From assembly GCF_000296835.1 (NCBI RefSeq), contig NZ_CAKE01000034.1, positions 1 to 61,006 of the forward strand: a stretch of 61,006 bases of DNA, given 5' to 3'. Source of the DNA: Lactobacillus hominis DSM 23910 = CRBIP 24.179. GTDB lineage: Bacteria > Bacillota > Bacilli > Lactobacillales > Lactobacillaceae. Position numbers and translations under genes: made by a program. Shown here piece by piece: positions 17,921 to 31,793 of the stretch. Within the stretch, counting starts at the first letter, position 1. Each line of letters starts with the position of its first letter. The notes below the pieces were generated by a model. It did not search any database and was not told the origin of the DNA. It saw nothing but the letters and a program-made list of their open reading frames with translations.

Positions 17921-18290
17921 CAAGTTTTGAGCAATCGCGGTTAACTTTTGTTAGCTGAGGAAAGTCCACGCACGCACGAGCTGCGATGCTCGTAGTTTTT
18001 GTACCCAGCCTAATAAGCTGCGGGATCCATTTTGGATCACGGCGGAAAAAGCGCTAAATCTTCGGACATGCGTTACTATCCTGAAAAGTGCCACAGTGAC
18101 GAAGCAGTCGAGGAAACTTGGCTGGTGGAACGAGGTAAACCCTGCAAGCGGGCAACCCAAATTTGGTAGGGGCGTCTCCATCTAAGGAATTGAACTAAAG
18201 ATGGGATCATTTTTTAATGAAGATAGATGGTTGCTGAAGGTAAAGGTTGACCAAGCTTTACTGGAACAGAACGTGGCTTATAGAAACTTG
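17921..18290 (+). ncRNA. rnpB: RNase P catalytic RNA (Bacillus type B)
   Basis: This RNA is the catalytic subunit that cleaves 5' leaders from tRNA precursors. The conserved GAGGAAAGTCC block lies at 17957 onward, and the conserved 3' part near ACAGAACGTGGCTTATAG lies at 18266-18283. The terminal helix P1 is visible as CAAGTTT (17921-17927) pairing with AAACTTG (18284-18290), which sets the ends. Length, about 370 nt, fits the B type. An extended -10 promoter precedes it and an intrinsic terminator follows. The gpsB-rnpB-methyltransferase order is common in Firmicutes. Confidence 0.95.
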
Positions 18291-22312: not shown

Positions 22313-22669
22313 ATGAAGCGACATTTTATCTTTCTAGGAGTTCCAGGAATAATTTATTATTCTTGGTTATTGGCACTTGTCTTTATTGGCGTGTGCGTTG
22401 CCTATGAAAGTAATAAATCTTTAAGCATACCTAGTTTGGTATTATGTAGTCTTTTTGGAATTTTACTAATATATACTTTAATTTATTCTTATTTTGAAGA
22501 AGATAATAAAAAAATTTATTTAAAACTTCCTTACCGTAAGAAAACAGAAGTTTCGAAATTACAATTAATGTATCAGTGGCATGCCTTCGAGATTTATAAA
22601 ATTAAAGATGAATATGAGAATTACTATGTTTTAACGATTAAAAGAAAGAAGAACGCCAATGGAAACTGA
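22313..22669 (+). CDS. Small membrane protein, possibly EbsA-like
   Basis: A 118-residue protein with two predicted membrane helices (about residues 8-30 and 38-60) and a C-terminal cytoplasmic domain of about 55 basic and aromatic residues. The layout of two helices followed by a small beta-rich domain resembles EbsA-family proteins of lactic acid bacteria, but the match is from memory of overall shape and is weak. It overlaps the start of fhs by 11 bases, so the two are translationally coupled. Function unknown. Confidence 0.5.
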
Positions 22670-24332
22670 TATTAAAATTGCACAAAATACTGAAGAATTA
22701 CCTATTCAAGAAATTGCTGAAAAAATTGGCTTAAATAAAGATGAAATTGAATTATATGGCTCTGATAAGGCTAAGATTACTTGGAAGGCTCTTAATGAAA
22801 AAAGAGCAAACTCTAAGTTGGGTAAGTTAATCTTAGTTACGTCTATTTCACCAACTCCTGCTGGAGAAGGCAAGTCAACAATTACGATTGGTTTAGGAGA
22901 CGCCTTCAGAAATCAATTGCATAAAAATGCGATGATTGCCTTACGTGAACCGTCAATGGGACCTGTTTTTGGCCTTAAAGGCGGAGCTACTGGTGGAGGA
23001 TATGCTCAAATCATCCCTATGGAAGACATCAACTTGCACTTTACTGGCGATATGCATGCTTTAACTAGTGCAATTGACACTTTAGCTGCTTTAGTAGATA
23101 ACTATTTATACCAAGACAATAGCCTTAACTTAGATCCAAACAAGATTTTGCTTAAGCGCGGAATTGATGTGAATGATCGTAGTTTAAGAAAGATCACTGT
23201 TGGACAAGGCTCTCGTTTTAACGGAGTTGAACATGAAAGCAGTTTTGCAATCACTGTAGCTAATGAATTAATGGCTATTTTATGTTTGGCAACTGATATT
23301 GATGATTTGAAAAAGAGAATTGGCGACATGCTTGTTGGTTATTCAACTGATAATAAGCCAATCTTTGTTAAAGATTTAGGCTTTGAAGGTGCAATTGCAG
23401 CACTTCTTTCAACTGCTCTAAAGCCAAACCTTGTTCAAACTTTGGAACATACTCCAGCATTAGTTCACGGCGGACCATTTGCTAACATTGCTCACGGTGC
23501 AAACTCCGTTATCGCAACTAACTTTGCTTTGCATGTTAGCGACTATGTTTTAACTGAAGCAGGCTTTGGTGCTGATTTAGGTGGTCAAAAGTTCATGGAC
23601 TTTGTTTCTAAGCACTTAGACAAGCGTCCAGATGCAGTGGCAGTAGTAGCTACTGTTAGAGCTTTGAAGTATCAATCAGAAAAGACAACTGATAACTTAG
23701 ATCAAGAAAACATTGCAGCCTTAGAAGACGGCTTTGGCAACTTGAAGCGTCATATGGAAAACATGGCTCGCTATGGTTTACCAGTTTTAGTTTTGATTAA
23801 CCGATTTGCTACTGATACTCCAGCTGAAATTGCACGTTTGAAAGAATTAGTACAAGAAGACGGCTTTGATTGCGAAGTGGTTTCTTACCACGATCAAGGA
23901 TCAAAAGGCGGTATAAAAGCAGCTGAAAAGCTAGTTTCATTAGCTGATCAAGGTGGCGAATTCAAGCCATTATATAATGAAGATGATGATCTACAAACTA
24001 AGATTGAAAAGATCGCTAAGAACATTTATCATGCCGGTGATATTGAATATTCTGATAAGGCATTAAGCCAATTAGAAGAAATCAAGAAGATGGGCAAAGA
24101 TAAATTGCCAGTGATCATTGCTAAAACGCAAGCTTCATTTACTGATGACAAAAAGCAACTTGGAGCTCCAGAAAACTTCACTTTGCATGTTAAAAATTTA
24201 GCCCTTAAAAATGGAGCAAGATTTATTGTGGTTTCAACTGGTCATATTTTAGATATGCCTGGTTTACCAAAGCATCCTGCTGCATTGGACATTGATGTTG
24301 ATAATAACGGAAAAATCTCTGGTTTATTTTAA
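22659..24332 (+). CDS. fhs: Formate-tetrahydrofolate ligase
   Basis: This enzyme makes 10-formyl-tetrahydrofolate from formate, tetrahydrofolate and ATP, feeding one-carbon units to purine and formyl-Met synthesis. The 557 residues include the nucleotide loop [19 protein letters not shown], the [20 protein letters not shown] block and GQKFMDFVS. Length is normal. It overlaps the upstream membrane-protein gene by 11 bases and its stop codon shares a base with the lspA start. No purine genes are adjacent. Confidence 0.96.
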
Positions 24333-24811
24333 TGAAAAAATCTAAACAAGTTTTATATTTATTAATTTCTATCTTTGTTGTGGCCTTAGACCAATGGCTT
24401 AAAAATTATATAGTTTCGACGATGCGTGTGGGAGAAGTGAAGAACGTGATCCCTCACGTTTTGTCGTTTTATTATTTAAGAAATGATGGTGCTGCTTGGA
24501 ACATTTTATCGGGTCAAATGTGGTTATTTTACTTGATTACTATTGCAGCCATCATTGTCGTGATTTATTATCTATTTAATCCCAAATATGCCAATCCTTT
24601 ATTTGACACCGGTTTAGCCTTAGTGTTAGGTGGAATAGTTGGTAATTTTGTAGACCGTTTGCACTTAAAGTATGTAATTGATATGTTTCAGCTAGATTTT
24701 GTTAACTTTAATATTTTTAATATTGCCGATAGTGCAATTACAGTAGGCATTATTTTAGTATTTATCTATATTTTATTTATGGATAATGATAAAAAGTTTG
24801 AGGGAAAGTAG
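24332..24811 (+). CDS. lspA: Signal peptidase II (lipoprotein signal peptidase)
   Basis: LspA is a membrane aspartyl protease that removes signal peptides from prolipoproteins. The 159 residues have four membrane helices and the conserved boxes DQWLKNYI, NDGAAWNIL, GGIVGNFVDRL (with catalytic Asp) and FNIADSAITVG (with the second catalytic Asp). The start overlaps the fhs stop, and rluD follows after three bases. lspA-rluD is a conserved Firmicutes pair. Confidence 0.95.
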   Translation: MKKSKQVLYLLISIFVVALDQWLKNYIVSTMRVGEVKNVIPHVLSFYYLRNDGAAWNILSGQMWLFYLITIAAIIVVIYYLFNPKYANPLFDTGLALVLGGIVGNFVDRLHLKYVIDMFQLDFVNFNIFNIADSAITVGIILVFIYILFMDNDKKFEGK

Positions 24812-24814
24812 GCT

Positions 24815-25732
24815 ATGGCAGAAAACTTTACTTTTAAAATTTCTGATCAAAAAGGGCGCTTGGATAAATTTCTCGCTCAAGAAATTGATGAGTTAAGTCG
24901 CACGAGAGTGCAAGAGCTGATTGATGATAAGAATATCTTAGTGAATGATAAGGTAGTTAAGGCTTCGTATAAACTGGAAAGCGGCGATAAAATTAGTGTC
25001 ACTATTCCACCTAAGAAGCCTTTATCTTTGAGTGCTCAAGATATGAACTTAGACGTCGTTTATGAAGATCAAGATGTGATCGTCGTTAATAAGCCTCAAG
25101 GCGTGGTGGTTCACCCTTCAGCAGGGCATCCCGACCATACATTAGTTAACGGTCTTTTGTATCATACGCAAGATTTAGCAAAGAGTCCTGAAGGTTTTAG
25201 ACCTGGAATCGTGCATCGCATTGATAAAGATACATCAGGCTTATTAATGATTGCCAAAAACGATAAAGCTCGCGAAAGTTTAGAAGACCAATTAGCTCAT
25301 AAGACTAACAAACGCGAATATTTAGCCATTGTCCATGGTAATTTTGAAGCAAAGATTGGCGTAATTAACGCTCCAATTGGTCGCAACCCTAATAATCGTA
25401 AGCAAATGGCAGTAAATCCTAAAGGTAAAAAAGCTATTACGCACTTTGAAGTATTAGAGCAATTTAAAAATTATGCCCTAGTTAAATGCGTTTTAGAAAC
25501 AGGACGCACACATCAAATCCGTGTCCATATGCGTTATATTGGCCATCCGATTGCTGGTGATCCATTGTATGGACCTAAAAAAACCTTAAAGGGAAATGGT
25601 CAGTTTTTGCATGCAGCAACTTTGGGTTTTGAACATCCTGCAACTCACAAGTGGCTAGAGTTTTCAGCTCCTGTGCCAGCAATTTTTCAAGAGCAACTTG
25701 ATAATCTAAGAAAAGAATCAATGAAGAAGTGA
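24815..25732 (+). CDS. rluD: RluD-family ribosomal RNA pseudouridine synthase
   Basis: A cytoplasmic enzyme that isomerises uridines to pseudouridine in large-subunit rRNA. The 305 residues have an N-terminal S4 RNA-binding domain (about 12-75) and a catalytic domain with the HRIDKDTSGLLMIAKND motif carrying the catalytic aspartate, followed by GRTHQIRVHMRYIGHPIAGD. In Bacillus (ylyB) and many lactobacilli this gene is followed by the pyr operon. Here carA starts 7 bases after its stop. Confidence 0.93.
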   Translation: MAENFTFKISDQKGRLDKFLAQEIDELSRTRVQELIDDKNILVNDKVVKASYKLESGDKISVTIPPKKPLSLSAQDMNLDVVYEDQDVIVVNKPQGVVVHPSAGHPDHTLVNGLLYHTQDLAKSPEGFRPGIVHRIDKDTSGLLMIAKNDKARESLEDQLAHKTNKREYLAIVHGNFEAKIGVINAPIGRNPNNRKQMAVNPKGKKAITHFEVLEQFKNYALVKCVLETGRTHQIRVHMRYIGHPIAGDPLYGPKKTLKGNGQFLHAATLGFEHPATHKWLEFSAPVPAIFQEQLDNLRKESMKK

Positions 25733-25739
25733 ACTTAGC

Positions 25740-26795
25740 GTGAAAAGATATTTAATTTTAGAAGATGGTAGTGCTTTTAGTGGCCATGGTTTTGGCGCCA
25801 CTACCATTTCAACGGGAGAACTCGCAATTCAAACTGCCAATTTTGGCTATCAAGAAGCTATTTCTGATCCAGCTAATTTTGGAAAAATCCTTACTTTCAC
25901 TACACCTATGATTGGCGGCAGTGGTATTAACGCAATTGATTATGAGTCTATCGATCCAAGCGTTAAAGGAATTATTGCCAATGATATTGCTTTTCATATT
26001 TCTGAAAGTAGTAGCTTCCAAGATCTGGATGACTTTTTAAAAGAAAAACGTATTCCTGCAATTTATGGCGTAGATACTCGTGCGATCGTCAAAAAGTTGA
26101 AAACCAAGCGCGTCATCAAAGCTTCTATCATGGATACCGACGATGATCATGCTTTTGATCAAATTCGCGCGCTAGTTTTACCTAAAAATAAAACCGCCCA
26201 AATTTCTACTTCTAATGCTTATGCCGCACCTAATATTGGCAAGACCGTAGCGGTTATTGACTTAGGTTTGAAGCACTCTTTATTGCGCTCTCTTTCTTTA
26301 AGAAAAATCAACAGCGTAGTGCTGCCATACAATGCTTCTATTTATGACATTGTAAATATTCGACCAGATGCAATTGTTCTATCTAACGGACCAAGCGATG
26401 TTAAAGAAATTCGTAATGCTTTAAAGCCAATGTTTGATTATTTTTACGGCAAATTGCCAATTTTAGGAATCGGCTTAGGCTTTTTAACCATTGCCGACTA
26501 TTTAGATCTAGAATTATTCGACTTAGTGCCACCTTACAATGGGAGCAACTTCCCAGTGATTGAGCAGTCCACTAATAAAATTTGGCAAACAGCAATGAAT
26601 ATCGATAAACTCGTTTTGCCTGAAAATATTTCTTTGAATTTTTCAAAAGTATATTATGACATTCGTTCTGATTTGATCGCTGGCTTCAGTTTAAAGAAAG
26701 AAAAGATTTTAGCCTCGGCATTTAATCCAGAAGGATCTCCGGGAAACTTTGATGCTGTAAGTATTTATGATCAATTTTTACAAATGATGGAGTGA
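25740..26795 (+). CDS. carA: Degenerate carbamoyl-phosphate synthase small subunit (glutaminase site lost)
   Basis: By overall sequence this is CarA, normally the class I glutamine amidotransferase that passes ammonia to CarB. The 351 residues keep the N-terminal CarA fold (STGELAIQTANFGYQEAISD, YGVDTRAIVKKLKTK) and the SNGPSDVKEI segment. The catalytic cysteine in the usual GICLGHQ motif is Gly245 (GIGLGF, codon 26472-26474). The His after it is Phe248, the catalytic His of HPE is Asn329 (codon 26724-26726), and the GHRGSNHP motif reads PYNGSNFP. Glu331 remains. Glutaminase activity is therefore not expected, yet the frame is intact. The start is GTG with a weak ribosome site. It is coupled to carB downstream. 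It may be a structural partner of the equally altered CarB. Confidence 0.85.
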   Translation: MKRYLILEDGSAFSGHGFGATTISTGELAIQTANFGYQEAISDPANFGKILTFTTPMIGGSGINAIDYESIDPSVKGIIANDIAFHISESSSFQDLDDFLKEKRIPAIYGVDTRAIVKKLKTKRVIKASIMDTDDDHAFDQIRALVLPKNKTAQISTSNAYAAPNIGKTVAVIDLGLKHSLLRSLSLRKINSVVLPYNASIYDIVNIRPDAIVLSNGPSDVKEIRNALKPMFDYFYGKLPILGIGLGFLTIADYLDLELFDLVPPYNGSNFPVIEQSTNKIWQTAMNIDKLVLPENISLNFSKVYYDIRSDLIAGFSLKKEKILASAFNPEGSPGNFDAVSIYDQFLQMME

Positions 26796-26799
26796 GAAA

Positions 26800-29700
26800 A
26801 TGCCACTACATAATGAGATAAATAAGGTTTTGATAATTGGGGCAGGTCCTAGCATTGTAGGTGAAGTTTCCGAAATGGATATTTTAGCCGAGCAAGCCTT
26901 GCAGGCTTTATCAGAAGATAACTTGCAGATTGTCTTGATTAATCCCAATCCGGCAACAATTGAAACTGATCCCAGAAAAAATGTGCGTGTTTATTTAGAA
27001 CCAATGACTTTAACTTTCGTCAAAAGAGTTCTACGCATGGAAAAGCCTGATGCTTTGATTAGTGCATTTGGCGGAAAGCCTGCTCTTAATTTAACCAGAC
27101 AACTGCAAAAAGACGGCATTTTAGATGATATGCATATTTCTTTGCTCAGCTTAAATAATTTAACTTTGCAGCTGCAAGATAATAAGAAGTTTCATGATTT
27201 TTTAGCACAAAATAAATTGCCAGTTGCCAACCAATGGGTGATTAATGACTTAGATAATATCGAAGAAACGCTAAAATATGCCCATTATCCTTTACGTGTA
27301 ACTAAAAAAGAGCTTTATCGCCCAGATGTACACCAAAGTTTGAAAAATATTAGCGAAGTAAGACAGTATTTTGAAAAACAGCAAGTACAGGATCATTTCA
27401 ATTTAGATAATTATTTTTTAAATGAAGATTTATCAAATTGGGAAGAGCTGATTTTTGATGTTATTCGTGATAATAATGGTAACTTTTGTTTCTTCAATAG
27501 TTTAGGTAGTTTAGAACCGGTTAAAATTAATGCGGCAGATTCTTTGCTGGTTTCACCAATTTTAACCCGCAATAACAATCAGATTCAACAGTTGAGAAAT
27601 TGCGTGCGCAAGATTGCCGATATTTTGAATATTCATGGTGCAATTGTAGTTCACTTTGCTGTTAAACAAGATGGCGAACAATTTAACTATAAGATCTTAT
27701 CAGTTAAGCCGCGTTTAACTAAGACCACTTTGCTTGGATATCGTAGCAGTATTTATAGTATCGGCTATATTACGGCGAAGGTCGCAGTCGGCTATAACTT
27801 AAATGAAATTATCGATCCGCAATCTGGATTGAATGCTTCAATTGAGCCAATCAAAGATGCTTGCAGCGTTAAATTGCCATATTGGTCATTTATTGAATCA
27901 GGCTATAACCACTACAAGCTCAGCAACCATCCAAGCTCAAGCGGTCAAGCATTAGGTATTGGACGCAGTTTTGAGTCAGCTTTTATGAAAGCGATTCAGG
28001 CAACGACTAATTTTGCGAATAATTATCACATTTTTGAAGCTGAAGTTGAAAAATCAAAAGAAGAAATCATTGACGATTTGCAAAAGATGGATGAAAGCCA
28101 TTTGATTGTTTTATTTGCGGCTGTAGCCAAAGGTTTAGACTATAAAACTCTACACAAAATTTTGCATATTCATCCTGTTTTCTTACAAAAGATTAATCAT
28201 TTAACATTGCTGATGAGAGAATTACGCGAGCAAGATCTTGATGCGCACTTGTTACATAAAGCAAAGATTAATGGCTTTTCTGATAAATTAATCGCTCATA
28301 TTGCTAAAGTAAGCGAAGATGAAGTTGAAGACTTATTGCTTAAAAACAATATATTTCCATCTTATGTTCAAATTGATGGGACTGCAGGTCTTGAAACGCC
28401 AAAAATTGATGCAGTTTATAGTGCTTATGGGGTTGAAAACGAAGTAAAACCTATTGAAACTCCTAAGAAATGTTTACTTTTAGGATTAAAGCCATTTCAG
28501 GTTTCTTTAACTGGCGAATTCGACTATATGATTTATCATGTAGCAAAAACTCTAAAAGAGCAGAGCATTAGTCCAATTATTATTTCAAACAATCCAGAAA
28601 GCATCTCTAATTCGTACGATGTTTGCGATCGCGTTTATTTTGAGTCAATTACTTTAGAAAATATTTTGGCAGTTGCTCGCAAAGAAAATATTGAATATGT
28701 TATGACACAATTTTCTGGTAAGCAAATTAATCAGTACCGCCCAGCACTTTTGAAGCATGGACTTAAGATTTTGGGTCAAGATAATGTTAAAGAAGTCTTA
28801 GAGCAAGATCGCACTAAACAAATTCTAAATGCTGGTGTAAATCCTGTTCCTGCTCTTGATACTAAGGATAAACAAGAAGTACTCGATTTTGCTAATGAAC
28901 ATGAATTTCCATTGTTAATCGGCGGTCGCAGCAATAAAAAGAAGTTAAAGTCAGCCGTTGTTTTTGATATGCCGGCTTTGAATAAATATATCTCTGAGAA
29001 TGATCTTGATGAAATGATGATTTCTAAATTTATCGAAGGTGATAAATATGAGATTACGGTCATCTCTGATGGGGAAAACGTAACAATTCCAGGAATTATT
29101 GAACACTTTGAACAAACTGGCTCCCACGCATCAGATTCAATCGCCGTCTTTAGTGCGCAAAACTTATCTTCTAATAAGCAGAGAATTTTGCGTGAAGCAG
29201 CAGTCAATATTGCAAGTCAAATGCATTTGCGTGGTCCCATTAACTTGCACGTTCTATTTTCAAATGATCAGCTTTATGTTTTACAGATAAAAACTTATGC
29301 TGGACACAATGTTGCATTTTTAAGTAAATCTTTACGTCAAGATATTGCAGCAATAGCAACCAAAGTATTACTAGGTGCAACTTTAGAAGAATTAGGGTGT
29401 GCAAACGATGTTTGGCCAACTAATGATTTAATTCATGTAAAAATGCCAGTATTTTCTTACCTCGGTTATCGTAGCGATAATACCTTTGATTCCAAGATGA
29501 AAACCTCTGGGTCAGTCATAGGGCAAGCACAAAGACTAGAAGTTGCTTTATATAAAGGATATGAAGCAAGTAATCTGATTATTCCATCGTATGGCACTGT
29601 CTTTATTTCTGTTAAAGATTCTGAAAAGAGCAAAGCAATCGATATTGCAGCTCGCTTTCATAAATTAGGTTTCAGTTTACTAGCAACAGAAGGTACGGCC

Positions 29701-29964
29701 AATATTTTGGCAGAAGAGGGAATTACGACCGGAATTATTGAAAAGATCCAAGAAGGCAGCAATAGTTTACTGGAAAAAATTAGCCAACATAAAATCAATA
29801 TGGTAATCAATGTGACAAATCTTTCAGATTCCGCCAGCATGGATGCCATTATGATTAAGGACCAGGCTTTGAGTACGCATATTCCGGTATTTTCTAGTTT
29901 GCAATCGGCTGAAGATGTGTTGACTGTTTTAGAAATGATGGCCATGACTACTCAGCCACTTTAA
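26800..29964 (+). CDS. carB: Degenerate carbamoyl-phosphate synthase large subunit
   Basis: The 1054 residues align by eye along the whole of CarB: two carboxyphosphate/carbamate ATP-grasp halves, an oligomerisation region and a C-terminal MGS-like allosteric domain. In half one, ligands known from E. coli are changed: Arg129 to Asn128, Arg169 to Thr168, Gln285 to His285, Glu299 to Ser301, Asn301 to Lys303; the glycine-rich loop after the Thr is absent. In half two, EVNPR reads QIKTY (Gln829, Lys831), the matching Gln is His817, and the VRPSYVLGG loop reads IGGRSNKKK. The MGS domain (about 930-1054) still looks ordinary (ISVKDSEKSKAIDIAARFHK, LATEGTANIL). GGAGTGAG before the ATG is a good ribosome site. 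Normal carbamoyl-phosphate synthesis is unlikely; a binding or regulatory role is an inference. Confidence 0.85.
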   Translation: MPLHNEINKVLIIGAGPSIVGEVSEMDILAEQALQALSEDNLQIVLINPNPATIETDPRKNVRVYLEPMTLTFVKRVLRMEKPDALISAFGGKPALNLTRQLQKDGILDDMHISLLSLNNLTLQLQDNKKFHDFLAQNKLPVANQWVINDLDNIEETLKYAHYPLRVTKKELYRPDVHQSLKNISEVRQYFEKQQVQDHFNLDNYFLNEDLSNWEELIFDVIRDNNGNFCFFNSLGSLEPVKINAADSLLVSPILTRNNNQIQQLRNCVRKIADILNIHGAIVVHFAVKQDGEQFNYKILSVKPRLTKTTLLGYRSSIYSIGYITAKVAVGYNLNEIIDPQSGLNASIEPIKDACSVKLPYWSFIESGYNHYKLSNHPSSSGQALGIGRSFESAFMKAIQATTNFANNYHIFEAEVEKSKEEIIDDLQKMDESHLIVLFAAVAKGLDYKTLHKILHIHPVFLQKINHLTLLMRELREQDLDAHLLHKAKINGFSDKLIAHIAKVSEDEVEDLLLKNNIFPSYVQIDGTAGLETPKIDAVYSAYGVENEVKPIETPKKCLLLGLKPFQVSLTGEFDYMIYHVAKTLKEQSISPIIISNNPESISNSYDVCDRVYFESITLENILAVARKENIEYVMTQFSGKQINQYRPALLKHGLKILGQDNVKEVLEQDRTKQILNAGVNPVPALDTKDKQEVLDFANEHEFPLLIGGRSNKKKLKSAVVFDMPALNKYISENDLDEMMISKFIEGDKYEITVISDGENVTIPGIIEHFEQTGSHASDSIAVFSAQNLSSNKQRILREAAVNIASQMHLRGPINLHVLFSNDQLYVLQIKTYAGHNVAFLSKSLRQDIAAIATKVLLGATLEELGCANDVWPTNDLIHVKMPVFSYLGYRSDNTFDSKMKTSGSVIGQAQRLEVALYKGYEASNLIIPSYGTVFISVKDSEKSKAIDIAARFHKLGFSLLATEGTANILAEEGITTGIIEKIQEGSNSLLEKISQHKINMVINVTNLSDSASMDAIMIKDQALSTHIPVFSSLQSAEDVLTVLEMMAMTTQPL

Positions 29965-29988
29965 ACATAAATAAATTTATGTAAAATA

Positions 29989-30025
29989 AATAGCTCATCT
30001 CGTAATTGAGATAAGCTATTTTTTT
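29989..30025. terminator. Bidirectional terminator between carB and rqcH
   Basis: AATAGCTCATCTC and GAGATAAGCTATT pair with one mismatch around a short loop and are followed by a T-run. The two flanking genes converge. Confidence 0.85.
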
Positions 30026-31715
30026 ATTGGATTCGTTTACTTAGAACTTCTTTTTCGTGAGGGGTTACTTCAATTGAATGCTGACCGGTGTAAATTACAA
30101 AACCAGGCTTTGCGCCGTTAGGCTTTTTAATTCGTTTAACTTGCACGTAATCAACTGGCACATGAGCTGAATGCTTTGCTTTAGAAAAGTAGGCCGCAAT
30201 TTCAGCAGCTTGTTTGATATCATCATCTGTTGGATTTTCGTCTTGCAAAATGACGTGTGAACCGGGGATATTCTTAACGTGGAACCAATAATCTTTTTTA
30301 TTGGCCTTTTTAAGAGTTAACCAATCATTTTGATAATTGTTTTTACCAACCAAGATAACTTTACCATCATCTAATTTGAATTCATTCAAAGTCTTTTCAG
30401 TAATCTTCTTTTTACGCTGGTGCACATTTTGCTTTTTTAGATAGCCTTGATTGGTCAATTCATCTCTAATTGCATCGATATCTTGTGGTTCGGCATTATC
30501 AATGGCTGTTTGAACAGAATCGAAATAATCTAGGTTTTCTTGAGTAATCTTCAGCTGCTCATTAATATGCTTGATTGAATTTCTTAATTTTTGATAGCGA
30601 GTAAAGTATTTTTGTGCGTTGCGAGCAGGTGGTAATGCTGGATCAAGTTTGATCTTCAAAGGTTGATTGTTTTCATAGTAATTAGGCAAAGAAATCGACG
30701 TCATGCCAGGTTTTACTTCATGCAAATAAGTATTTAATAATTCACCTTTGATACGGTAGCTTTCAGAATTTTCTGCTTGATCAAGCTGCTTGTTTAGCTT
30801 AACTAATTTTTTAGCTAATTTCTTTCTTTCATTAGAAACCACATTTTCAATCTGCTTAGACTTTTGGCGCACCCATTGCTTATTGGCTTGCTCTTTATAA
30901 AAATCGTCTAGTGCGGCATTAACATTTTGATTAGAACTAATTAAAGTTAAATCTAGATGGTAAGGCAAATAAATGAAGAAACGATCTTTATGCCTTGGTG
31001 TCTGCAAAACATAACCTTTTGGACGATCAAAATGATCAAAGAATGTTTTTAAAGAACTATAGGAAAAATCATCTTCTAAATATCCTAAAAATTCTTTTCG
31101 ATCATCACCGTCTAACCCATTAAATGATTTAACAAAGTCAGCTGGCTCTGGAATTTCAGATTTTAATTTATTGAATTTTTCTTCACTAAAGTTAAAACCA
31201 TTTAACCCTGAAAGTAGGGGAGGAAGCTCATAGCTAGCATGAGGCAACAATAAACGCGCCCGGTTTTCATCAGGATTAATTCTCTTAAGCAGATCAATGA
31301 TCTTGTTGTCAGTTGCATTATAGAGAATTACATTACTATGTTTGCCCATTAATTCTACGGAAAGAACTAATTGAACTTCATCTCCTAATTCATTGCGATT
31401 AGAAAAATGGAAGTTAACAATTCTTTCGACACCAATTTGTTCAACTTTATTTAAAATAGAACCTTCCAAGTATTTTCTTAGCACCATTACAAAAGTAGGG
31501 GCTACGTCTGGATTGACGATATTTTCATTAGTTATATAGAAACGCGGATTTTGTGCATTTGCCGAAATCAATAATTTTTGATTTTTTCTGTCTTTTCTAA
31601 AGTTAAGTACTAAATCATAATCAAAAGGCTGATAAATTTTAGTTAGTTTTGCCTTTAATAATTTAGGAGTTAAATCAGTTAATAAACTATGTATAAATAA
31701 GCCATCAAAAGCCAT
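30024..31715 (-). CDS. rqcH: NFACT-family ribosome quality-control protein RqcH (FbpA)
   Basis: RqcH (formerly fibronectin-binding protein FbpA, related to eukaryotic Rqc2/NEMF) binds stalled 50S-peptidyl-tRNA complexes and directs C-terminal alanine tailing. The 563 residues contain the NFACT-N region (MAFDGLFIHSLL), a long central coiled coil (about 280-400) and the C-terminal NFACT-R region with DYWFHVKNIPGSHVIL and HSAHVPVDYVQVKRIKKP. The ATG at 31715 is chosen because AGAGGTG lies a short distance upstream; a TTG codon one position earlier is unlikely. It is transcribed alone. Confidence 0.9.
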   Translation of the reverse strand: MAFDGLFIHSLLTDLTPKLLKAKLTKIYQPFDYDLVLNFRKDRKNQKLLISANAQNPRFYITNENIVNPDVAPTFVMVLRKYLEGSILNKVEQIGVERIVNFHFSNRNELGDEVQLVLSVELMGKHSNVILYNATDNKIIDLLKRINPDENRARLLLPHASYELPPLLSGLNGFNFSEEKFNKLKSEIPEPADFVKSFNGLDGDDRKEFLGYLEDDFSYSSLKTFFDHFDRPKGYVLQTPRHKDRFFIYLPYHLDLTLISSNQNVNAALDDFYKEQANKQWVRQKSKQIENVVSNERKKLAKKLVKLNKQLDQAENSESYRIKGELLNTYLHEVKPGMTSISLPNYYENNQPLKIKLDPALPPARNAQKYFTRYQKLRNSIKHINEQLKITQENLDYFDSVQTAIDNAEPQDIDAIRDELTNQGYLKKQNVHQRKKKITEKTLNEFKLDDGKVILVGKNNYQNDWLTLKKANKKDYWFHVKNIPGSHVILQDENPTDDDIKQAAEIAAYFSKAKHSAHVPVDYVQVKRIKKPNGAKPGFVIYTGQHSIEVTPHEKEVLSKRIQ

Positions 31716-31793
31716 CAAATCACCTCTTAAAAACTATCTTATTAATTATACTATTTTTATTTGTTTTTAGCTAAAACCTAATTATATCAGTAC

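Follow-up and report, generated by a model that had tools for sequence, protein, structure and literature searches.

What keeps a carbamoyl-phosphate synthase (CPS) in a genome once its active sites have gone? The question is raised by a carA–carB pair in a 61,006-nucleotide stretch of DNA from Lactobacillus hominis DSM 23910 = CRBIP 24.179 (contig NZ_CAKE01000034.1; hereafter the window), part of a 1.93-Mb genome of the genus Lactobacillus that is 99.93% complete. We refer to the two products and their counterparts in the genus as CarA' and CarB'. Catalytic or metal-ligand residues are missing from all three active sites of CarA'B'. Purifying selection nevertheless acts on the pair, every species sampled in the genus has it, and it persists in those that have given up de novo pyrimidine synthesis. 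Retention of CarA'B' without catalysis is close to certain. The explanation that we favor, tentatively and at a little short of an even chance, is that the pair is a dead CPS inherited from an ancestral pyr operon and now serving, without catalysis, as a metabolite sensor or scaffold.

25740..26795, + strand: carA', CPS small subunit, inactive by its residues (GTG start, 351 aa; Pfam and alignment)
26800..29964, + strand: carB', CPS large subunit, inactive by its residues (ATG start, 1054 aa; Pfam and alignment)
29635..29892, + strand: MGS-like domain of CarB', residues 946-1031 (Pfam PF02142)

Both frames are open over their full length and the genes are coupled, as stated in the original prediction, which had been made from the window sequence alone; there are no internal stops, and 4 bp separate the genes. 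CarA' combines an N-terminal CPSase domain with a glutaminase-like domain and is full length; CarB' comprises two ATP-grasp halves, an oligomerization domain and an MGS domain. A Pfam search recognized CPS domains in both products, which also have full-length homology to PDB chains.

Active sites of CarA'B'

We aligned 38 Lactobacillus pseudo pairs (that of the window and those of 37 loci) with 12 canonical Lactobacillus CarAB pairs, using E. coli CarAB numbering; L003 and L004, duplicates of L032 and L033, and L001 and L002, which are the window itself, were dropped. The window CarA' carries C269G, H272F, Q273L and H353N (Gly245, Phe248 and Asn329 standing for C269, H272 and H353) and retains the triad acid as E331 for E355. 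The first half of CarB' carries R129N, R169T, G175R, G176P, H243N, Q285H, E299S and N301K and still has E215 and R303, and the second half carries R715G, G721K, G722K, E761K, Q829H, E841Q, N843K, R845Y and R848H. Every substitution named in the original prediction is present in the alignment with E. coli CarAB and the 12 canonical pairs. Its broader claim that nearly all catalytic residues are replaced holds for the losses that it listed and has to be qualified for the triad acid of CarA' and the two residues kept in half one of CarB'.

Across the genus, the catalytic residues are intact in 12/12 canonical paralogues versus replaced in 38/38 pseudo pairs. C269G, H272F, Q273L and H353N occur in every one of the 38 CarA' sequences, with the acid E355 retained; the 12 canonical CarA proteins all keep Cys and His and have Asp at residue 355. 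Half one of CarB' is variable at R129 (Q, P, H or N), R169, G175 and G176, and also at E299 (S, T, N, M or G), with H at Q285 in 37/38 and K or R at N301 in 37/38. Half two is fixed for R715G, E761K, E841Q, N843K and R848H in 38/38, with Q829H in 37/38 and R845Y in 36/38. Since half one is variable and half two uniform, the former looks released and the latter looks rebuilt. Positions that are invariant in the catalytic set (48 CarA and 48 CarB) and fixed differently in the 38 pseudo pairs number 5 in CarA and 27 in CarB.

The glutaminase triad C269/H353/E355 thus reads G, N and E in the window and in 38/38, the half-one ligand set R129, R169, Q285, E299 and N301 reads N, T, H, S and K in the window, and the half-two set R715, E761, Q829, E841 and N843 reads G, K, H, Q and K. 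An ammonia-dependent CPS, with both Mg-ATP sites intact in the absence of the glutaminase Cys, is not what these residues describe, and catalysis by CarA'B' is excluded as far as sequence allows. Glutamine sensing by CarA' is likewise unlikely, with S47, Q273 and F314 replaced in 38/38 and G313 in 36/38; G241 is retained, as is N311 in most of the pairs.

Retention and constraint in Lactobacillus

A CarB' relative was found in 60/61 genomes of the genus, the lone exception being 59% complete; a few of the matches in this search are partial (for example those of G001, G020 and G031). Among the genomes at least 95% complete, CarB' is present in 58/58 and open over the whole query in 57 (window included), the other open full-length frames being 48-87% identical to the window CarB'. 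The two relatives found in our named collection are those of an uncultured Lactobacillus sp. (87% identity) and L. colini (70%). The only broken frame of the 58 is that of G020 (L137, about 1266-1589), in which a frameshift falls within the MGS domain and could be an assembly error or the start of decay.

We estimated the ratio of nonsynonymous to synonymous substitution rates (dN/dS) by the Nei-Gojobori method for pairs with dS of 0.05-1.5. The medians are 0.040 for CarA' (66 pairs, range 0.010-0.242) and 0.037 for CarB' (36 pairs, range 0.021-0.318), and those of the canonical proteins are 0.058 for CarA (11 pairs) and 0.027 for CarB (8 pairs). The pairs share branches and, as dS between the window and L032 or L033 is saturated or uncomputable, these values inform on the genus and not on the window's own branch. 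The dN/dS of about 0.04, similar to that of the catalytic paralogue, the 57/58 open frames and the 58/58 retention, taken with the uniform catalytic replacement, strongly support the retained pseudoenzyme of the original prediction: the pair is homologous to CPS, has lost its catalytic residues and is kept by selection.

A full canonical CarB is present in 44/58 genomes and missing from 14/58. L. hominis is among the 14: the second, intact carAB that the original prediction proposed to look for was not found in a search of its genome, which has no canonical CarB and no PyrB. PyrB is above the cut-off in 44/58 genomes as well, with two low-scoring PyrB-like matches below it, and the two sets of 44 differ, G042 having CarB without PyrB and G010 having PyrB and canonical CarA with a broken CarB. 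PyrR is above the cut-off in 52/58, and the six genomes without it all belong to the 14. All 14 still have CarB'. The persistence of CarA'B' without a full canonical CarB (14/58) and without PyrR (6/58) means that its job in Lactobacillus needs neither. The remnants of L. colini (G013), in which canonical CarB and PyrB are fragments with stops and CarA'B' is intact, are an internal control showing how decay looks. Six genomes (G011, G012, G015, G036, G045 and G126) have a second PyrR right after the canonical carB, with 36-40 bp between the matches; they belong to the branch with CarB' 67% identical to that of the window.

Constraint is unevenly distributed along the pair. Among the 38 pseudo pairs, the invariant share of positions is 35% in the CarA N-terminal domain, 34% in MGS, 29% in the second ATP-grasp domain (ATP2), 26% in the glutaminase-like domain and 24% in the region before the first ATP-grasp domain (ATP1), and it is lowest in the oligomerization domain (5%), ATP1 (14%) and the region before ATP2 (18%). 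The MGS domain of the window, described as normal in the original prediction, is unchanged at the positions examined (S937, K943, T963, T966, K982, N1004 and T1006). We take the contacts of this domain with uridine monophosphate (UMP) or inosine monophosphate (IMP) to be K954, T974, T977, K993 and N1015, as in E. coli structures; the residues at these five positions are KTTKN in 38/38 pseudo and 39/48 canonical sequences, one of the nine canonical misses being the split CarB of L091. Twelve of the 14 species without a full canonical CarB are in the 38-row alignment, and all five contact residues are present in them. The canonical CarB proteins L088, L096, L098, L104 and L108 (genera g4, g23, g29, g36 and g2) have intact catalytic residues and have lost the UMP/IMP contacts of MGS; feedback control may be gone in them.

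The locus and its relatives in other Lactobacillaceae

The pair lies in the following surroundings.

22659..24332, + strand: formate-tetrahydrofolate ligase (fthfs), first gene of the run
24332..24811, + strand: lspA, conserved upstream neighbor in the same gene run
24815..25732, + strand: RluA-family (rluD-like) pseudouridine synthase, conserved 5' neighbor ending 7 bp before carA'
29988..30021, strand not assigned: terminator-like inverted repeat in the gap where carB' and the rqcH-like gene converge; scoring covered the - strand only
30024..31718, - strand: rqcH-like (FbpA/NFACT type) gene, conserved convergent downstream neighbor, by synteny
17923-18285, + strand: RNase P RNA, bacterial class B (301.9 bits)

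The genes fthfs-lspA-rluD-carA'-carB' form a tightly packed run, convergent with 30024..31718, a putative rqcH-like gene by synteny. The lspA-rluD ... rqcH-degV synteny of Lactobacillaceae loci with pyrR and a dead carA–carB pair is found in the window; pyrR, either directly beside carA' or with pyrP between, is absent from it, and the only PyrR above the cut-off in the genome is paired with pyrP on another contig. GC content at third positions is alike in carA'/carB' (0.29-0.30) and their neighbors (0.25-0.31). A scan of the region for promoters and terminators returned matches no commoner than in shuffles, and by itself supports the terminator weakly (6 matches against a shuffle mean of 6.9).

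We sampled 37 other Lactobacillaceae genera, with one genome each and more for some, and found a CarA without the catalytic Cys or His in 31 of the 37, reading 37 such loci; seven short CarB frames outside the first outgroup table are included in the family-wide counts, and L129, a partial canonical copy of g20, contributes no residues to the family table. C269G is found at 36/37 dead loci, the exception being L101. rluD or rqcH adjoins the dead pair at 36/37 loci and in 30/31 genera, and neither was found at L125 (g28) within the 6.9 kb examined. Of the 37 dead loci, 32 (in 27/31 genera) have pyrR, which immediately precedes carA at 27 of them and is separated from it by pyrP at the other 5. 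No pyrR was observed at the dead loci of g3, g6, g27 and g33, the contig ending there in g33. As pyrR is next to or near the dead pair in most other genera, the pair probably belonged ancestrally to a PyrR-linked module of pyrimidine regulation, and in Lactobacillus the PyrR link is inheritance, not evidence. The dead CarB measures 643-901 aa in 26/31 genera, with no MGS domain found at those loci, and is full length with MGS in g11, g15, g21, g27 and g33. A complementarity by which PyrR stands beside the pair or MGS is intact, never both, fails, g11 having both and g3 and g6 neither at the locus.

Two of these genera depart from the general pattern. L101 (G092, g33), where carAB lies beside pyrP and rqcH, still has Cys269 but neither His353 nor the CarB ligands. 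A second genome of g33 is canonical, and L101 looks like a separate, younger loss. In L064 and L132 (g21), CarA and half two of CarB are dead and half one equals canonical L034 at all 12 examined positions, so that the g21 protein is possibly half-active.

Only canonical copies were found in the genomes read from g12, g13, g25, g29, g30 and g31. The order pyrP-pyrB-pyrC-carA-carB is present in five of these six genera, with rqcH downstream in g12, g25 and g31; this canonical order at rqcH fits an ancestral pyr operon at the place, of which the dead pair is a leftover. At L091 (G088, g29), where pyrB, pyrC and carA are neighbors, the canonical carB is split into two open frames (853 and 207 aa). 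The CarA tree places the dead rows in several spots and forces three changes for C269G (L101 included). When the retest omitted 17 of the 83 rows, long branches and near-duplicates, a tree joining all C269G rows in one clade had the higher score and was not rejected (approximately unbiased test, p-AU 0.643). Since the one-clade tree is not rejected, C269G could have a single origin, with L101 looking like a second start; one early origin of the dead pair is likelier, and we do not claim convergence.

We listed the best 120 of 419 database matches of the window type and the best 120 of 7063 of the L. plantarum type. Among the window-type matches listed, all 104 clusters of 300 aa or more (P0001-P0104, of which P0001 is that of the window itself) have Gly at the Cys and Asn at the His; in the best 120 of 7063, Gly replaces Cys in 120/120 clusters. 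The Gly-for-Cys clusters listed include L. plantarum, Pediococcus, Leuconostoc, Weissella, Limosilactobacillus, Levilactobacillus and Apilactobacillus. Most of the matches listed are unnamed; the names given to the others are CPS small subunit or chain, carbamoyl-phosphate synthase and, once, hypothetical protein.

Candidate functions and known systems

How might a dead CPS be of use? In the scheme that we favor, an ancestral pyr operon with carAB would have been located between rluD and rqcH, and CarA'B' would descend from its carAB. CarA' and CarB' would still assemble into a CPS-like complex, whose MGS domain would bind a uridine nucleotide, most likely UMP, or a related phosphate. The second ATP-grasp domain, its metal ligands now fixed as Lys, Gln and His, could relay the signal to CarA' or another partner, making CarA'B' a metabolite-controlled scaffold. 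The constraint on CarA', the second half of CarB' and MGS, together with the intact MGS contacts, suggests a nucleotide-responsive complex; UMP as the sensed ligand is what we infer from those contact residues.

Several points weigh against this proposal. The contact positions on which it draws come from structures of the E. coli enzyme, not from CarB' itself. MGS is absent from the dead CarB in 26/31 other genera, so sensing through this domain cannot be the role of the whole lineage and would occur only in Lactobacillus, g27 and perhaps g11; the nucleotide sensing suggested in the original prediction agrees with the intact UMP/IMP contacts of all 38 pairs and does not extend to the lineage as a whole. 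In the nine genomes for which the two paralogues were aligned, every domain of the pseudo pair is less conserved than its canonical counterpart, with the smallest differences in MGS (63 vs 67 of 129 columns invariant, 49% vs 52%) and in the CarA N-terminal domain (58% vs 68%). Finally, the sole broken CarB' of the 58, that of G020, is in a species without canonical CarB and may hint at a tie between CarA'B' and pyrimidine synthesis.

Other explanations bear on the same observations. A working CPS of unusual chemistry is barely conceivable: the NCBIfam CPS equivalog cut-offs NF009475 and NF003671 are passed and relatives are named CPS in databases, but neither the glutaminase Cys-His nor the Mg-ATP ligands examined in the two halves are left, and the equivalog cut-offs of TIGR01368 (248.6 vs 307.35 bits) and TIGR01369 (641.8 vs 1027 bits) are failed. 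Slow decay, in which genes on their way out persist through their location in a housekeeping cluster, could account for the variety of half-one ligands, the weak conservation of the oligomerization domain, the G020 frameshift and the absence of MGS in 26 genera. It is nevertheless very improbable given 57/58 open full-length frames, dN/dS of about 0.04 and Gly and Asn in 104/104 clusters listed; for the genus as a whole it is refuted by dN/dS and the open frames, and decay in one strain is rejected on the 58/58 retention, the same ratio and the uniformity of the clusters. We consider it rather unlikely that the second ATP-grasp domain has been re-tooled to convert another substrate with its newly fixed residues. 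The uniform half-two swaps (five at 38/38, Q829H at 37/38) and the 27 fixed swaps in CarB' would suit such an enzyme, but the acidic metal ligands E299 and E841 are gone in both halves, every ATP-grasp enzyme known to us needs Mg-nucleotide, and ATP2 is less conserved than its canonical counterpart (118 vs 182 of 253 invariant columns in the nine matched genomes).

Pseudoenzymes commonly regulate an active paralogue, and 44/58 species have both copies, which would allow CarA'B' to act solely as a regulator or chaperone of canonical CPS, for example in mixed complexes with catalytic CarA or CarB. However, the 14/58 species without full canonical CarB keep CarB', 12 of them (all those in the 38-row alignment) with the five MGS contact residues, and a role confined to canonical CPS is quite unlikely. 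We also regard it as unlikely that, in the wider family, the pair responds to pyrimidines and inorganic carbon as the partner of the neighboring PyrR (in L. plantarum, PyrR2), and that Lactobacillus kept the pair and lost the neighbor. Such a partnership would explain pyrR at 32/37 pseudo loci in 27/31 genera, and the g37 loci L072 and L110 carry pyrR and the dead pair at the equivalent place, the L072 CarA being 94% identical to a Lactiplantibacillus plantarum protein and the PyrR of a g37 canonical operon sharing 62 and 64% identity with the PyrR proteins of two pseudo loci of g37. Against it, six Lactobacillus species have the pair and no PyrR that passes the family cut-off, and lp_1782 (L. 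plantarum PyrR2) is only presumably this very locus. As for Rfam PyrR sites, none was found in the window, one of 14 pseudo loci (g11) reached the gathering score, and a laxer search returned 0/3 pseudo loci vs 3/3 canonical operons. As only one of those three operons reached the gathering score, 1/14 is a weak negative, on which we reject PyrR attenuation of the pseudo locus. PyrR2 is reported to act in an inorganic-carbon response of L. plantarum (PMC3582564), and a further report deals with PyrR2 of this species (PMC7911632). In conjunction with the PyrR link of other genera, these reports make pyrimidine or inorganic-carbon regulation a natural place to look. A doubtful though credible extension is that the family-wide dead CPS lineage senses pyrimidine-nucleotide, and perhaps inorganic-carbon, status through PyrR2 in most genera or through its own MGS in Lactobacillus, as a signaling scaffold that has outlived its pathway.

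Returning to what is retained, a dead CPS pair persists throughout a genus and, as related forms, in most of a bacterial family; databases call CarA'B' an enzyme, and it very probably does another job. With the proteins mostly unnamed or named CPS, pathway reconstructions may list pyrimidine or arginine precursor synthesis for species that lack it; the 14/58 Lactobacillus species with the dead CarB and no full canonical one are exposed to such misannotation. The related pairs are also a concrete partner candidate for the PyrR2 of L. plantarum (PMC3582564). We found nothing on an inactive CPS pair from these bacteria in the open-licence library searched. To our knowledge, no described pair has both CPS subunits and all three active sites dead and is kept by a genus.

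CarA'B' resembles E. coli CarAB (PDB 1bxr and others) in domain order, length, gene order and MGS contact positions, and differs from it in the loss of the glutaminase nucleophile and His and of the Mg/ATP ligands at the examined positions of both halves; identity to E. coli CarB is 26% for the window CarB' and 49-50% for canonical Lactobacillus CarB. Ammonia-dependent CPS I (PDB 5dot and 6uel, matched by sequence) has no glutaminase Cys and keeps both ATP-grasp sites. CarA'B' shares with it a small-subunit part kept without the nucleophile, whereas both of its ATP-grasp sites are lost. The L. plantarum PyrR2 locus is comparable through the pyrR and dead carA–carB order of L072 and L110; in Lactobacillus, by contrast, pyrR is missing from the locus and CarB' is full length, MGS included. 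The two L. plantarum proteins PyrR1 and PyrR2 are reportedly 62% identical, and the operon is said to be named pyrR1BCAa1Ab1DFE, which implies that a second Aa/Ab pair was noticed. PyrR itself is a phosphoribosyltransferase fold reused as a UMP-responsive RNA-binding regulator, often with some uracil phosphoribosyltransferase activity retained; its fold is other than that of CarA'B', and it offers a precedent for a pyrimidine-pathway enzyme fold turned regulator.

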